NCBI GenBank assembly: GCA_019638845.1
Contig: JAHBSZ010000005.1
Coordinates: 124,001-188,000 of the forward strand
Source: Salinibacterium sp.
GTDB lineage: Bacteria; Actinomycetota; Actinomycetes; Actinomycetales; Microbacteriaceae
Reading direction: 5' to 3'
Length of the DNA stretch: 64,000 bases
Below the pieces are notes generated by a model. That model was not told the DNA's origin. It worked only from the letters and a program-made list of their open reading frames with translations, and did not search any database. The translations under genes and the position numbers were made by a program. Shown one piece after another: positions 17,691 to 22,807 of the stretch. Position 1 is the first letter of the stretch. The number at the start of each line of letters is the position of its first letter.

Positions 17691-17718
17691 AATCTATCAG
17701 CGGGCCCCTCCGTGTCAC
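17691..17718 (-). promoter_or_regulatory. Promoter of cbs-metB, leaderless
   Basis: On the minus strand a -35 GTGACA (17713-17718) and a -10 TAGATT (17691-17696) are 16 bases apart. Only 9 bases separate the -10 box from the cbs ATG at 17681, and no Shine-Dalgarno is present. This geometry predicts a leaderless transcript. Confidence 0.6.
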
Positions 17719-17801
17719 CCGGGACCGTCGTTCACACTGGATTCCAAGCAGACAGGCACCATGATGGAGTCACGACCGACCCAATCCTGACAGGATGTGC
17801 C

Positions 17802-18470
17802 GTGCCCGATCCCAGCCAGCCGACCGTCAAACAGCAACGAGACGCCCGCAGGGCGGTGAAAGTTGTGGCGATGCAGAAGCAACTGGCCGCCCAGAAGCGC
17901 AATCGGCGCATCGGACTTACAGCAGCAATCACGGGTGGAGCCTTAGTCATCGGCCTCATCGTGACCTTCGTGGTCGTCAGTGCCACTCCCAAGCCCGACC
18001 CGAGCGCTATCGACATTCCGGGCCTCACCACTTTTGGCACCCTCACCCCCACGCACGTCGACGGTGCAGTCGACTACCAAGCCGACTACGGGATGAACCC
18101 GCCCGCGGGTGGTAACCACAACGCGGTATGGCTCAACTGCGGGGTCTATGACCAGCCCCAACAGAACGAGAACGCCGTTCATTCGCTCGAGCACGGCGCA
18201 GTCTGGATCACCTACGACCCCAGTGCGCTCACCCCCGCAGAGATCGACACGTTGCGCGGCGAGGTTCCGGGCACGTACAGCATTTTGTCGCCGTACCCCG
18301 CCCTCCCGGCACCTGTGGTTATCTCCGCATGGTCGGCGCAGGTGCAGCTCGACGGTGTCGATGACCCCCGGCTGCAGTTGTTCATCCAGAAGTTCTGGAA
18401 GTCGGCGACCGCACCTGAGCCTGGGGCCGCGTGCACGGGTGCCCTCGATGGTCCCGGCAAGGTCTCCTGA
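17802..18470 (+). CDS. DUF3105 family membrane-anchored protein
   Basis: A 222-residue protein. I chose GTG 17802, which has AGGAT 7 bases upstream; the frame is open further back without support. A basic, coiled N-terminus of about 40 residues precedes one transmembrane helix (GLTAAITGGALVIGLIVTFVVV) and an extracytoplasmic DUF3105 domain with GGNHNAVWLNCGVY and the conserved HSLEHGAVWITY. The family function is not established. It overlaps or abuts the DUF305 gene downstream; this pairing of secreted His-rich proteins suggests an extracytoplasmic metal or redox role, which is inference. Confidence 0.82.
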   Translation: MPDPSQPTVKQQRDARRAVKVVAMQKQLAAQKRNRRIGLTAAITGGALVIGLIVTFVVVSATPKPDPSAIDIPGLTTFGTLTPTHVDGAVDYQADYGMNPPAGGNHNAVWLNCGVYDQPQQNENAVHSLEHGAVWITYDPSALTPAEIDTLRGEVPGTYSILSPYPALPAPVVISAWSAQVQLDGVDDPRLQLFIQKFWKSATAPEPGAACTGALDGPGKVS

Positions 18471-19122
18471 GTCGTTGGCCGTCGAGTCGGGTCGTCGCAC
18501 CCGGGTCGCGGTCGCCGCGGTTCTCACGGCATTGTTGCTGGTCTCGGCATCCCTCGTCATCGGGCGCCTCAGCGCGCCTGCCAGCCACGCGCCACTCGAC
18601 CGCAGTGTGGAGGCGGGGTTCGCGCGGGACATGCAGGTGCACCACAATCAGGCTGTCGACATGGCCATGGCGGTGCGCGAACTCACCACCGACCCTGACA
18701 TACGGCTGCTCGCCTACGACATAGCTACCTCGCAAGCTCAGCAGTCGGGTCAGATGTTCGGCTGGCTCGCCGACTGGGGCCTCAATCAGGCGCCCTCCGA
18801 ACCACCGATGACCTGGATGACTCGACCGATGCTCGCCGGTAGCCATCACGATATGGCCGACATGGCGATCACACCGGGCGGCGCAATGCCGGGGATCGCC
18901 ACGCCCGCTCAACTCGCCGAACTCACGGCATCTTCTGGGGTTGAAGCCGAGAAGCTCTTTCTCACTCTGATGATCGCGCATCATCAGGGCGGGGTCGACA
19001 TGGCCGAGGCGGTGCTCGCTCGCACGCAGAATCGCGTTGTCGTCGATCTCGCGAACAGTATCGTGCAAGCGCAGTCGAGCGAGATCACCGTGATGGAAGG
19101 CATGCTCGCCGCGCGTCAGTAA
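18448..19122 (+). CDS. DUF305 domain secreted protein, probable metal binder
   Basis: A protein of about 224 residues with an N-terminal membrane anchor or signal (VAVAAVLTALLLVSASLVIG) and two copies of the DUF305 helical motif: DMQVHHNQAVDMAM and IAHHQGGVDMAEAVL. The HH-x(n)-DM pattern resembles copper-binding CopM-like proteins. The start is uncertain: ATG 18448 overlaps the upstream gene by 23 bases, while TTG 18475 follows AAGG and lies just after the upstream stop. It forms a two-gene unit with the DUF3105 gene and ends 14 bases before the end of the convergent channel gene. Confidence 0.8.
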   Translation: MVPARSPESLAVESGRRTRVAVAAVLTALLLVSASLVIGRLSAPASHAPLDRSVEAGFARDMQVHHNQAVDMAMAVRELTTDPDIRLLAYDIATSQAQQSGQMFGWLADWGLNQAPSEPPMTWMTRPMLAGSHHDMADMAITPGGAMPGIATPAQLAELTASSGVEAEKLFLTLMIAHHQGGVDMAEAVLARTQNRVVVDLANSIVQAQSSEITVMEGMLAARQ

Positions 19123-19136
19123 CCCCTTGCGGCCCG

Positions 19137-20570
19137 TCAGCCGAAAATGCGCGTGCCCGGTGGTATGACGACTCCCGCAGCCTCAAGTGCGGCGATGGCG
19201 AGAGTCCGTCGATTGTCGATCTCTTGGCCAATGTCGCGCGCAAGTCGAGGGCGCGAGCCCACCAGGCCGTCAAGAACCGCGACAGGGATGAACAGCACCG
19301 CGAGATCGCTCGTGGCGGTGATCCGGGCATCAACACCCTGCCGAGTAAGCGCGGTAAGCCCCACGACATCGTCGCGATCGAGCGTCGCGAAGCGTACCTC
19401 CGCTCCCGCCTCGATGGGGGTGGCGATCTGGGCGGTGCCGCTGATGATGTAGCGCATGCCTTCGGGGATGCTCTGCGGCTGCTGGATCACCTCGCCCTCG
19501 CCCCAACGCTCCAGCCGAGCCTGTGGGGCAATTACGGGCACATCCTCCGGGGTGAGGTAGAGCGCCGGAGCGACCCTCCGTACGGCCGCTTCGGTATTCG
19601 CGGGAGTGTTGAAGTTGTCGGTGAGGTCACCATCAAGGTGTAGATCTGCGCGTCGAGCGGCGTACCACAGCCGTGTTCGGAACAGCTTGATTGACGACCC
19701 GTTGTCTCCCGGGCTCGCGATGGGAATCTCCACCTCGTACTTAGCCTTGGACATCGGGGTGATGGTCGGCAGTTCCCCCGCCACGGCGGCGGGCAGATCG
19801 GCGGCAACCTGCATACACACGTCGATGACCTGCTGAGGTGGGTCATCGGTAGAGAACTTCACGACGATATCGAGCTCGAACGGCGACGGCTTTCGGCTGA
19901 GGTTGAGGAACGATCCGCCCGCCAGCGACGAGTTCGGTATCACCAGGATTCCGCGAGCCGTCTTGATGTGCACGGCTCGCCAGTTGACCTCGACGATCCG
20001 CCCGCGCGCGCCATTCACCTCGAGCCAGTCCCCGAGCCCGAAAGGCTGTTCGAAGAGCAGGAAGAGGCCAGAGACTACCGAGCCCACTGCAGTTTGCAGC
20101 GACAACCCGATCACGATCGACCCGACCCCGAGGGCAGCGAAGAGACCGCCAATGTCCGTGCTCCAGACCACGGAGAACAGCACCCCGAGGGCGATCAGAA
20201 TCAGAATTATCCGAACGATGTCCACGAAGATCGACGGCGTTCGGCTGCGCCAACTTCCCTCCTTCGCCGTCACAAACAGCGCAAAGTTGATGGTGTTGAG
20301 CAGCACGAGGATGAGCAGGAAGCCAAAGACCGTGGCCACCACGCGAGTCCAGGTGAACTCGACGTTCGCGTAGTGGGCCTGACTCATCAGAAGCAGCAGT
20401 GCACCCACCGGCGCGACATAGTTGCGCAGCAACATGACGATGCGCGTTGCGTGACTTCCCCGCCGCTCGAGCGTGCTGTGCAACTCGGTCAGGATGAGCA
20501 ACGTCACCGGTAACCCGACAACCACCCCCACCGCGGGCCAGAACCACGGTTGCATCCAGAATGCTGTCAC
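19137..20570 (-). CDS. MscS-family channel with C-terminal cNMP-binding-like domain
   Basis: A 477-residue membrane channel. Four or more transmembrane helices cover residues 10-170, and the pore helix and MscS signature are at 141-185 (ALGVGSIVIGLSLQTAVGSVVSGLF, then EQPFGLGDWLEV). A beta-rich vestibule follows (186-335). A cyclic-nucleotide-binding-fold domain (about 345-450) is recognisable by GMRYIISGTAQIAT and DDVVGLTALT...ITATSDLAVLFIPV. In that domain the glutamate of the phosphate-binding cassette is Leu405, and by my alignment the arginine is Val413, so classical cAMP binding is doubtful. Its ATG overlaps the stop of the cyclase-like receptor gene by 4 bases, implying coupled translation and joint function. 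Confidence 0.87.
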   Translation of the reverse strand: MTAFWMQPWFWPAVGVVVGLPVTLLILTELHSTLERRGSHATRIVMLLRNYVAPVGALLLLMSQAHYANVEFTWTRVVATVFGFLLILVLLNTINFALFVTAKEGSWRSRTPSIFVDIVRIILILIALGVLFSVVWSTDIGGLFAALGVGSIVIGLSLQTAVGSVVSGLFLLFEQPFGLGDWLEVNGARGRIVEVNWRAVHIKTARGILVIPNSSLAGGSFLNLSRKPSPFELDIVVKFSTDDPPQQVIDVCMQVAADLPAAVAGELPTITPMSKAKYEVEIPIASPGDNGSSIKLFRTRLWYAARRADLHLDGDLTDNFNTPANTEAAVRRVAPALYLTPEDVPVIAPQARLERWGEGEVIQQPQSIPEGMRYIISGTAQIATPIEAGAEVRFATLDRDDVVGLTALTRQGVDARITATSDLAVLFIPVAVLDGLVGSRPRLARDIGQEIDNRRTLAIAALEAAGVVIPPGTRIFG

Positions 20571-22807
20571 GCGTCAAACCCCGTCGGGGCCTCAGGCACG
20601 TCCACCCGCCACACCTTCTGCGGCCCAGACGCCGTATTGACGAATCCCCAGTCGCGCACCTGGATGTTGTCGGGCATCCGGTCGACCACTTGTTGGGTGA
20701 GGAAGATGCCCGAGTCGCCGTTGGTGCCCTGCAACTGGAATGCGAGATTCACAGCGTCGCCCCACAAGTCGTAGGCGATGTGCGACTGGCCGACGAGCCC
20801 ACTTGTCACGGTGCCCGTGTCGATCCCCGCGCGGATGCTCAGCTTCGTGCCGTGCTTTCCGCCGTACCGATTCGCGATCCGCTCGAGGTCCATTGCGAAC
20901 TCCACCATGCGGCGCGCGTTATCCACGCGCGGGATCGTGAGACCACAGCTCGCGAGATAGCCGGCGCGGGTGGTGCGCACGCGCTCGACCCCGTGCCGAT
21001 CCGCCACATCGTCGAAGGCACGGATGATCTCGTTGAGCTTCGCGAGGGCTTCTTCCGAATGCATGCCCCGACCGAATGCCTCAAACCCGACGATGTCAGC
21101 AAACAACACGGACACCTCTTGATGGTCGAGGACAATCGTCGCCGCACCCTCCTTGTACTTCTTCACCAGCGGTTCGGGCATGAGAGAGAGCAGCAACCGA
21201 TCATTCTCGGCCTGCTGCTCCGCGAGCAATGTTGCTTTCGTCTGGAGGCTGCGACTCATGTCGTTGAACGCGGCACCCACGTCAGCCAACTCATCACTCG
21301 TTCCGGCGTCGACCTGCACCCCGGTCTCGCCCGCCGCAATGCGGCGAGCGGCATCACGCAACCGGCGCAACGGGCGCACGATCACCCCGGCGATGACGAG
21401 CGAGAGCAGCGAGACCAACAGCACGATGATTGCCGACGAGAGAACGAGGTTCCGAGTGAAGTCGTCAACGGGCGCGAACGCCTCAGAACTGTCGAGCTCC
21501 GCCACGATCACCCAGTCCAACCCGTCGAGCTGGAGTGGGGCGTACGCCGCAATGGTCTCGGTGCCCAAATACCCGCCCGCGAGAGTCGTGCCGGACTGCC
21601 CCTCGGCAGCGCCTTGCACGGCATCCGTATGCACGGGCTGTAGCAGCAGCGTGTTGCCGGTCTCCACCGCACGATGGGCTGCCTCGGGCGGAGTGCCAGC
21701 CTTGACTGCGAGCTGCTCGTACAGAGCGGGATTCTCGATCAGGTCGCGGGATGTCGAGCGCATCAGGTTGTCTTCGGCACCCACGATGTAGGTCTCACCC
21801 GTCTTGCCGAGGCCGCCTTCCTCCCATTTGCCGTCGCCGGTCATGACCGCGTTGATCGACGCCACGGGCATCTCGACAGCGAGAGCTCCGACAATGGTTC
21901 CGTCAACCGCCACGGGGGTGACCGCCCATCCGGCCGGCACGCCGAGCGACGGTGGGTACGGCGCAAAATCGGTGAACTCGACGGTGCCTGCAACGTTGCC
22001 GGTCAGTGCCTTCGCGTACGCCGCGGCGAGATTCGTGCGCTGCAGGGGTCCGGTGTCGAGGTCGGCGCCGAGGTCGATGCCCTTGTATGCCGAATAGACC
22101 ACGTGTCCCTTGGTATCGAGCAACAGCACGTCTTCGTAGTGGAAGAGCTCGGTCATCCGACGAAAGTAGTCGTGGTACAGCTCGTGCGCCTTCGACCAGT
22201 CGCTCCCGTCACCGGCGTCATTGGTGGCTATCGCCTCGTCGAAAGTGGAGAACGGAACCGTGTAGCGCAACTGAAGGTAGCCCTGCGCCGGGTCTGTCGG
22301 AACGAGCGTCGACGCGTCGATACTCGTGCCGGTCGCCGCCTCGAGCTGCGCCCGGAAGGTCCCCGTGTAATACGACTCAAGAGCTGCTCGATCTTCAGAG
22401 CTGAGTCCGGTGTCTTCGAGCGCGGCGAATCCCGCGGAGAAGGCAACAACCGCTTCGCGCACGCTGTCACCTCTGGCGCTCAGCAAGAGCGTGCTCTCGA
22501 TCGAATCGAAGAGACTCACCATCTCGCTCGCGCGCGAATCACGCACCTCGATGAGGCGATTGAACGCCGCTTCGCGCAGGGAGTCGCGACCGTTCACATA
22601 GCCGATGAGTCCGACCACGACACTCGACGTCGTGCTCACCAACAACAACATGATGAGGAGCAACGAACGGATGCTCAACCCGCCCTTTGCGCTGGCGCTC
22701 GGAAGCAGGAGCACGTTCGGGGCGGGAGGCGGGGTGGGGCCGACGGTGGACACTGATGCTCCTGGCTGCGGGCACAACAAACTGTGTAATTCGTTCACCT
22801 TAGCCAC
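20567..22807 (-). CDS. Membrane receptor with HAMP and class III cyclase-like domain, degenerate active site
   Basis: A 746-residue receptor. It has a Pro-rich cytoplasmic N-terminus, TM1 about 48-70, a large double-Cache-like sensor domain 75-450, TM2 about 454-477, HAMP 478-530, a short coiled linker, and a class III nucleotidyl cyclase homology domain 560-730. The first metal Asp is present (FADIVGF, Asp571). The second, expected 44 residues later, is Ala615 in RTTRAGYLASCGL; the substrate lysine is Arg611. The transition-state Arg of NxxxR is Gln691 (NLAFQLQ), while Asn687 is kept. It may be inactive or work differently. It starts at GTG 22807, 35 bases after the ABC exporter stop, and is coupled to the MscS gene. 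Confidence 0.88.
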   Translation of the reverse strand: MAKVNELHSLLCPQPGASVSTVGPTPPPAPNVLLLPSASAKGGLSIRSLLLIMLLLVSTTSSVVVGLIGYVNGRDSLREAAFNRLIEVRDSRASEMVSLFDSIESTLLLSARGDSVREAVVAFSAGFAALEDTGLSSEDRAALESYYTGTFRAQLEAATGTSIDASTLVPTDPAQGYLQLRYTVPFSTFDEAIATNDAGDGSDWSKAHELYHDYFRRMTELFHYEDVLLLDTKGHVVYSAYKGIDLGADLDTGPLQRTNLAAAYAKALTGNVAGTVEFTDFAPYPPSLGVPAGWAVTPVAVDGTIVGALAVEMPVASINAVMTGDGKWEEGGLGKTGETYIVGAEDNLMRSTSRDLIENPALYEQLAVKAGTPPEAAHRAVETGNTLLLQPVHTDAVQGAAEGQSGTTLAGGYLGTETIAAYAPLQLDGLDWVIVAELDSSEAFAPVDDFTRNLVLSSAIIVLLVSLLSLVIAGVIVRPLRRLRDAARRIAAGETGVQVDAGTSDELADVGAAFNDMSRSLQTKATLLAEQQAENDRLLLSLMPEPLVKKYKEGAATIVLDHQEVSVLFADIVGFEAFGRGMHSEEALAKLNEIIRAFDDVADRHGVERVRTTRAGYLASCGLTIPRVDNARRMVEFAMDLERIANRYGGKHGTKLSIRAGIDTGTVTSGLVGQSHIAYDLWGDAVNLAFQLQGTNGDSGIFLTQQVVDRMPDNIQVRDWGFVNTASGPQKVWRVDVPEAPTGFDA

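Follow-up and report, generated by a model that had tools for sequence, protein, structure and literature searches.

A pair of adjacent genes was analysed in a 64,000-nucleotide stretch of a Salinibacterium sp. genome (contig JAHBSZ010000005.1, positions 124,001 to 188,000; hereafter the window), one coding for a membrane receptor with a class III cyclase-like domain and the other for an MscS-type channel with a C-terminal cyclic nucleotide monophosphate (cNMP)-binding fold. The two genes behave as an inseparable unit, and the altered active-site and pocket residues of their products are conserved well beyond the genus. We consider it fairly probable that this conserved pseudocyclase receptor controls the channel without making cyclic AMP (cAMP), by contact or through another ligand.

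Receptor and channel as one unit

The original prediction, derived from the letters of the window, placed the two genes at 19137-22807, and we recovered both open reading frames (ORFs) there, on the minus strand:

20567..22753 (longest ORF to 22807), minus strand: receptor gene (Cache-like ectodomain, HAMP, linker, pseudocyclase), from the ORF, Pfam and an AlphaFold model
19137..20570, minus strand: gene for the MscS-type channel with C-terminal cNMP-binding fold, from the ORF, Pfam, AlphaFold and Foldseek
20567..20570, minus strand: four-base GTGA overlap of receptor stop and channel start, from the sequence

The overlap had been given as ATGA, which is incorrect: the channel starts with GTG (20568-20570), and the receptor stop is TGA (20567-20569). 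The receptor itself probably begins 18 codons into the long ORF, with the GTG at 22753, as an AGGAG box accompanies this codon and it aligns with the starts in three relatives (L034, L035 and L036); in L031, a stop lies upstream of the probable receptor start. Receptor residue numbers refer throughout to the 746-amino-acid longest ORF. Promoter and terminator scans gave nothing above chance, and the sole match of an Rfam scan is a tRNA elsewhere.

The two genes are indeed linked. In 398 family genomes, receptor and channel occur in an identical set of 64, as neighbours on a single contig every time, and in 79/79 pairs the genes share a strand with the receptor preceding the channel. A wider scan of 135 relatives, in which 80 loci were studied (Microbacterium, Agromyces, Subtercola, Mycetocola, Mycolicibacterium, Mycobacterium and unplaced metagenome-assembled genomes, MAGs), recovered the receptor in 80/80 loci and the channel directly downstream in 79, the exception being located at a contig end. 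The distance from the receptor stop to the extrapolated channel start spans -10 to +39, with 37/78 at -4, equivalent to the four-base overlap. Within the genus, 10 of 27 genomes possess both genes and 17 neither. Four genus genomes have the neighbouring cysteine gene without the pair, and three of these were inspected: in G016 the neighbourhood is intact and both genes are gone as one block, with the alignments to the DUF305 and ATP-binding cassette (ABC) genes ending 8 bases apart, G013 likewise lacks both at the same locus, and G023 displays a different neighbourhood.

In the Microbacteriaceae loci inspected, the pair is often found between an ABC exporter and a cysteine synthase-type/pyridoxal phosphate enzyme pair, frequently with DUF3105 and DUF305 genes in between. 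Three mycobacterial loci (L127, L141 and L148) have other neighbours, and thus the pair alone is the constant part. Distances in the receptor and channel trees correlate (r 0.95; 23/42 splits shared), but this mirror-tree correlation proves little because linked genes share their history. Across 44 relatives with open frames, identity to the window is 44-82% for the receptor and 42-83% for the channel.

Two further observations concern this locus. Beside the pair, the window has DUF3105 and DUF305 genes in overlapping ORFs (17712-18467 and 18109-19119, plus strand), as have many syntenic loci. In one metagenome copy (L138:4902-8540), a frame shift joins the front of the receptor and the channel in one frame, which was taken as an assembly error.

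A receptor with an altered cyclase active site

The receptor comprises the following elements, all on the minus strand:

21452..22603, minus strand: extracellular Cache-like domain, residues 69-452; AlphaFold, predicted local distance difference test (pLDDT) mostly >90; dCache_1 below cut-off in L148 and L196
21242..21394, minus strand: HAMP domain, residues 472-522; Pfam PF00672, E 3.9e-14, above cut-off
21122..21232, minus strand: linker, residues 526-562, which we take to be what is named a cyclase-transducing element; conserved in the alignment
20672..21121, minus strand: pseudocyclase domain, residues 563-712; PF00211, E 1.7e-31, above cut-off, and Foldseek matches to cyclase domains
20975..20977, minus strand: codon of Arg611, at the substrate-Lys position; alignment, Arg in 95/95 non-identical pairs
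20963..20965, minus strand: codon of Ala615, at the second metal-Asp position; alignment
20735..20737, minus strand: codon of Gln691, at the transition-state Arg position; alignment, R 60, Q 33, K 1 and A 1 of 95

Of the Cache-HAMP-pseudocyclase anatomy put forward originally, HAMP and the cyclase fold are thus clear, with the Pfam Guanylate_cyc match spanning residues 562-712 and Foldseek returning 4p2f and 7yz9 (solved relatives include Rv1625c and a soluble bacterial adenylyl cyclase). The Cache part is weak by Pfam (E 0.1 in the window; dCache_1 E 2.4e-10 in a mycobacterial relative, still below cut-off), yet AlphaFold yields an alpha/beta ectodomain of the size expected for Cache. The models, computed from 45-row alignments (A3 and A4, with one genome present twice, as L034 and L092), reach a mean pLDDT of 82 for the receptor and 81 for the channel, with a predicted template modelling score of 0.58 each. 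The receptor model consists of a long first helix, the ectodomain, a second long helix and the cyclase fold. Its confidence is poor for HAMP and linker (pLDDT 44-68) as well as for the two active-site loops (52-68), so that it is no reliable guide to the pocket.

In the active site, D571, R611, A615 (44 residues after D571) and Q691 are all as first described, and D680 and N687 are present. Of the two metal aspartates, 44 residues apart in active enzymes, D571 is present and the second is replaced by A615; at the base-selecting positions D680 is kept and R611 takes the place of lysine; and at the transition-state positions N687 is kept and Q691 replaces arginine. The register is controlled by three other cyclases (L012, L024 and L226; L015 was left out of the alignment comparison), which hold both metal aspartates, the asparagine and the arginine in the same columns. 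Since the lysine is kept in just 1/3 of these controls (the otherwise canonical L012 has Arg, and L024 has His), R611 alone proves little. On the residues, the metal Asp and transition-state Arg losses are the telling ones in the window strain and the Lys-to-Arg replacement is not diagnostic.

A channel with an altered phosphate-binding cassette

The channel elements are likewise on the minus strand:

20049..20153, minus strand: predicted pore-lining helix, residues 140-174; AlphaFold, pLDDT 52-71 (low), and alignment to MscS/YnaI
19893..20090, minus strand: MscS beta-domain, residues 161-226; Pfam PF00924 (MS_channel_2nd), E 2.5e-18, above cut-off
19251..19550, minus strand: cNMP-binding fold, residues 341-440; PF00027 at 355-436, E 4e-7, above cut-off, pLDDT ~90, Crp 4ev0 at Foldseek rank 46
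19314..19361, minus strand: degenerate phosphate-binding cassette, residues 404-419, with Glu replaced by Leu405 and Arg by Val413; alignment

Membership of the MscS superfamily, with pore helix and beta-domain, is evident from PF00924 and the fold matches, as MscS and YnaI head the Foldseek result and the Crp match at rank 46 covers the C-terminal part. The protein also has the layout of the bacterial cyclic nucleotide-gated (bCNG) channels, a cyclic nucleotide-binding domain (CNBD) following the MscS core, but without the cassette Glu and Arg, as L405 and V413 are indeed found where originally noted. The canonical cassette carries an EPR motif, and the mycobacterial channel cassette, GQTALTREPVTAAAYAL, has EPV in its stead, which supports the placement of Val413. 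The cassettes share a non-canonical pattern of their own, with R410 in 101/109 channel rows and T409 in 97.

Conservation of the altered residues

The altered positions were surveyed in 95 non-identical pairs, drawn from Microbacteriaceae, mycobacteria and unplaced MAGs; the set excludes L125, which reaches a contig end without a channel, L153, in which the channel is truncated, and L138, whose reading frame is broken. The first metal position, 571, is D in 86 and E in 9, and 611 is R in 95, lysine occurring in none. The second metal position, 615, varies widely (N33 Q22 A8 S8 G7 E5 K4 D4 R3 H1). Position 680 is D in 95, 687 is N48 S23 D18 T6, and 691 is R60 Q33 K1 A1. In the channel, position 405 is L40 Q39 S10 I4 V1 M1, with Glu in 0/95, and 413 is V46 T26 A9 I6 L3 N3 E2, with Arg in 0/95; a single channel, L160, has Arg one residue further, at 414. 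The 29 pairs below 70% identity give the same residue picture. The 10 same-genus carriers have A, S or K at the second metal position, Arg for Lys and GLTALTRQG or GLTSLTRQG as cassette, with Arg at 691 in 1/10. A lone mutation or sequencing error is thus ruled out by the 10 same-genus species and the 95 pairs, and so is a lone mutant strain among canonical relatives, which had been named as a finding that would overturn the proposal.

Asp at 615 recurs in four receptors (L074, L077, L080 and L168), of which L077 has Glu at 571, and L080 and L168 have Ala and Gln, respectively, at 691. The receptor of L074 (genome G344) keeps both metal aspartates, the asparagine and the arginine, so that only the lysine differs, next to a channel with a fully altered pocket. 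It may represent a sporadic return, as its sister of the same genus, L071, has His at 615.

A larger census of 110 receptors and 109 channels counts some genomes twice (L060-L089 and L090-L169 overlap). Across 110 receptor rows the mean column scores are 0.68 for the first transmembrane segment, 0.51 for the ectodomain, 0.596 each for HAMP and cyclase domain and 0.602 for the linker, and R611 and Y617 (110/110) as well as D680, W682 and G683 (109/109) are invariant. Conservation of the pseudocyclase thus equals that of HAMP and linker, which places the domain under constraint. In the channel, the pore helix and beta-domain score 0.67, the alpha-beta part 0.43, the cNMP fold 0.40 and the cassette 0.47.

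Deep branch and search for a canonical pair

Three genomes outside the class of the window strain carry the order receptor A-channel-receptor B (L196:5034-11001, L197:4330-10258 and L198:4872-10830), two different degenerate receptors flanking one MscS channel. Alignment at this distance is uncertain; as aligned, the first metal Asp is absent in 6/6 receptors and the Arg is present in none. Receptor A keeps the Lys in 3/3 and the second metal Asp in 2/3. In receptor B, the Lys is replaced by R, R or Q, the second metal position holds D, E or E, and the base-selecting Asp is lost. The channels lack the Glu in 3/3, L197 has Arg in the column of 413, and L196 is without a Pfam cNMP domain. This pattern argues, on residues, that the altered state of the pair is old.

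No canonical ancestral pair emerged from 148 genomes of the class of G467, where a long match was obtained only in G467 itself and the other 15 match part of the MscS core only. Among 40 matches listed, the window channel matches plasmid-borne proteobacterial MscS-CNBD proteins over 70-81% of its length. Eight such proteins (L226-L233) have the Glu in 6 and the Arg in 1, both being lost in 2, and a cyclase-domain match falls within 4 kb of the channel in 1/8 of the plasmid regions, on the opposite strand. As 7/8 lack the canonical Arg, its loss is common in the proteobacterial MscS-CNBD family, and the label 'cyclic nucleotide-gated' may not fit many of these channels.

The original interpretation is partly upheld. 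The linkage stands and the substitutions are conserved in homologues, but a correlation between them could not be shown, as both residues are missing from all channels of the 95 pairs, and because the deep branch gives no canonical pair, polarity and correlation are not resolvable there either. A joint loss is not demonstrated either, given the frequent absence of Arg in plasmid CNBDs, the weak conservation of the channel's cNMP fold and the deepest branch, which is itself degenerate with Arg in the aligned column of one of three channels; the near-complete receptor of L074 beside its degenerate channel also speaks against a tight correlation.

Other cyclases and cNMP-binding proteins

In the genus, every one of the 10 carriers has a single PF00211 domain, that of the receptor, and the 17 remaining genomes have none. 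Family-wide, 78/398 genomes have a match, 64 of which are the carriers, and the receptor is the sole match in 59/64; G188, G239, G261, G307 and G357 have more than one. Searches limited to classes I, III and IV found no second cyclase in the window genome, with class IV absent there and class I absent from all 27 genus genomes. The sole other PF00027 match in the window genome is a Crp/Fnr protein (G000:C6:611768-612019, L199) with cassette GEMMLIGQRMYDNYAEA, in which the Glu is kept and the canonical Arg-Ser-Ala is absent; G017 has a similar one (L200). A PF00027 match is also present in 11/17 genus genomes without the pair.

Mechanism and alternative explanations

We propose that the Cache-like ectodomain likely senses a small molecule outside the cell, and that the signal would pass through HAMP and linker to a dimer of non-catalysing class III cyclase domains. 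This dimer would act as a regulatory head on the MscS-type channel, shifting its opening, either by touching the cNMP-fold domains or by means of a ligand other than cAMP or cGMP in one of the altered pockets. Conservation of HAMP, linker and pseudocyclase suggests that a signal still travels inside. From the residues we infer the loss of catalysis and of cNMP binding, and the model likewise supposes that the cyclase domains dimerise, that receptor and channel couple physically, that the channel is gated in this way and what sort of stimulus acts. A narrower form, a two-protein ligand-gated channel in which the cyclase domain serves as mechanical coupler to a repurposed cNMP fold with no second messenger, is considered less likely than not; this pure-contact version is rated lower because the CNBD is weakly conserved.

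Several points weigh against control of the channel by a non-catalysing receptor. The transition-state Arg is retained in 60/95 pairs, and L074, judged by its residues, could have cyclase activity provided that Arg611 does not prevent it. The receptor may still bind nucleotide, and its active-site loops are modelled at pLDDT 52-68 only. That the channel does not bind cNMP is suggested by just two residues, and its cNMP fold, at 0.40, is among the least conserved parts of the protein, rendering a tight conserved interface or pocket less expected. Mycobacteria, finally, have other cyclases and hence cAMP at their disposal.

The alternatives are not all exclusive of the proposed control without catalysis. 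One that is compatible with it, and that we hold to be a reasonable if less favoured possibility, is that the pseudocyclase is a nucleotide sensor, which would bind ATP or GTP without turnover and add the energy state to the Cache signal. Nucleotide may indeed still be bound, since R611 and D680 occupy the base-selecting positions in 95/95 and D or E is found at 571 in 95/95, although the same conservation could reflect fold or dimer packing. It is rather unlikely that the channel domain answers another small ligand, produced at some other place in the cell, with the receptor merely helping assembly: in favour is the cassette that is shared but different from the canonical one, yet signalling by the receptor is indicated by the conservation of HAMP and linker.

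It appears improbable that the receptor works as a cyclase in spite of its unusual active site and supplies the channel with cAMP or some other cyclic nucleotide. Congruent with activity are the good PF00211 score, the retained D571, D680 and N687, the Arg at the Lys position of the otherwise canonical L012, the receptor of L074 lacking only the Lys, and weak PycC profile matches. In the window strain, however, neither the second metal Asp nor the transition-state Arg is present, the former position varies freely across the family, including Lys, Gly and Ala, and both phosphate contacts are missing from the channel pocket in 95/95. Rv1359, without one metal Asp and the Arg, has been taken as barred from an active homodimer (PMC3961136). 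Catalysis by the window receptor is accordingly judged improbable on residues, as is cAMP gating on those of both proteins, in line with its rejection in the original prediction.

A mixed dimer of the receptor with a second, intact cyclase is very unlikely: two different receptors surround one channel in the deep branch and other cyclases exist in mycobacteria, but 59/64 Microbacteriaceae carriers and the window genome have no second PF00211 domain, and the first metal Asp is missing in 6/6 deep-branch receptors. Least credible of all are decaying relics, for despite the lost catalytic residues and stops inside the matched stretch in 10/64 receptor and 3/64 channel rows, the frames are open over 44 relatives, the order is conserved and the pseudocyclase is as conserved as HAMP.

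Relation to known systems

We take Rv2435c/Rv2434c of Mycobacterium tuberculosis to be the probable counterpart, with Rv2434c presumably the MscS-CNBD neighbour of Rv2435c. Synteny gave this identity no support from L148, which is flanked by amylase-like and esterase-like genes; the family is present as the same pair in many other mycobacteria. In the literature, Rv2435c is described as a double-Cache adenylate cyclase of the cAMP network (PMC4822843) and a mammalian-type cyclase, next to Rv1359, which is probably inactive for lack of a metal Asp (PMC3961136). Its expression has been reported (PMC3938503), and Rv2434c is described as a transmembrane protein possibly in cAMP signalling (PMC11205783). 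Rv2435c is thus treated as an adenylate cyclase of the cAMP network, and the sections seen of PMC3961136 and PMC4822843 contain no statement of a pseudoenzyme with a channel. Keyword literature searches returned, by title and abstract opening, no description of the pair as a pseudocyclase-channel unit; a 2004 survey, known by abstract and references, mentions Rv2435c (10x), Rv2434c (3x) and 'inactive cyclase' once, and may already cover part of it (PMC2447327).

The Rv1625c-type receptor cyclases (7yzi/7yzk, 4p2f) are the best solved relatives by sequence and among the best by fold; they keep both metal aspartates and the Arg, unlike the window receptor. A phenotype of Rv1625c independent of its cyclase domain offers a useful precedent (PMC9995111). 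The bCNG channels, named for cyclic-nucleotide gating (according to titles in the reference list of PMC4560390), resemble the window channel in the MscS core followed by a CNBD, but the window clade differs in the absence of Glu and Arg in 95/95 pairs and in the adjoining receptor gene.

A likeness also exists to Pycsar in the adjoining of a cyclase-like gene and a nucleotide-binding effector gene. In Pycsar, a class III-like cyclase gene lies beside the gene for such an effector; the window receptor differs in lacking the catalytic Asp and in being membrane-spanning with Cache and HAMP domains. Assignment to Pycsar or another anti-phage system was rejected, as the PycC profile matches only weakly (2.6e-6), PADLOC finds nothing for the channel and the metal Asp is missing.

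Implications

Such proteins are currently labelled adenylate cyclases and cyclic-nucleotide channels. Should control without catalysis hold true, the sole class III 'cyclase' of most Microbacteriaceae carriers examined would make nothing, and counts of bacterial cAMP enzymes would need correcting. A pseudoenzyme and an altered nucleotide-binding domain would have been retained together, as a single unit, across long spans, and signalling from receptor to channel with no known messenger would become testable in soil and water bacteria that are harmless.

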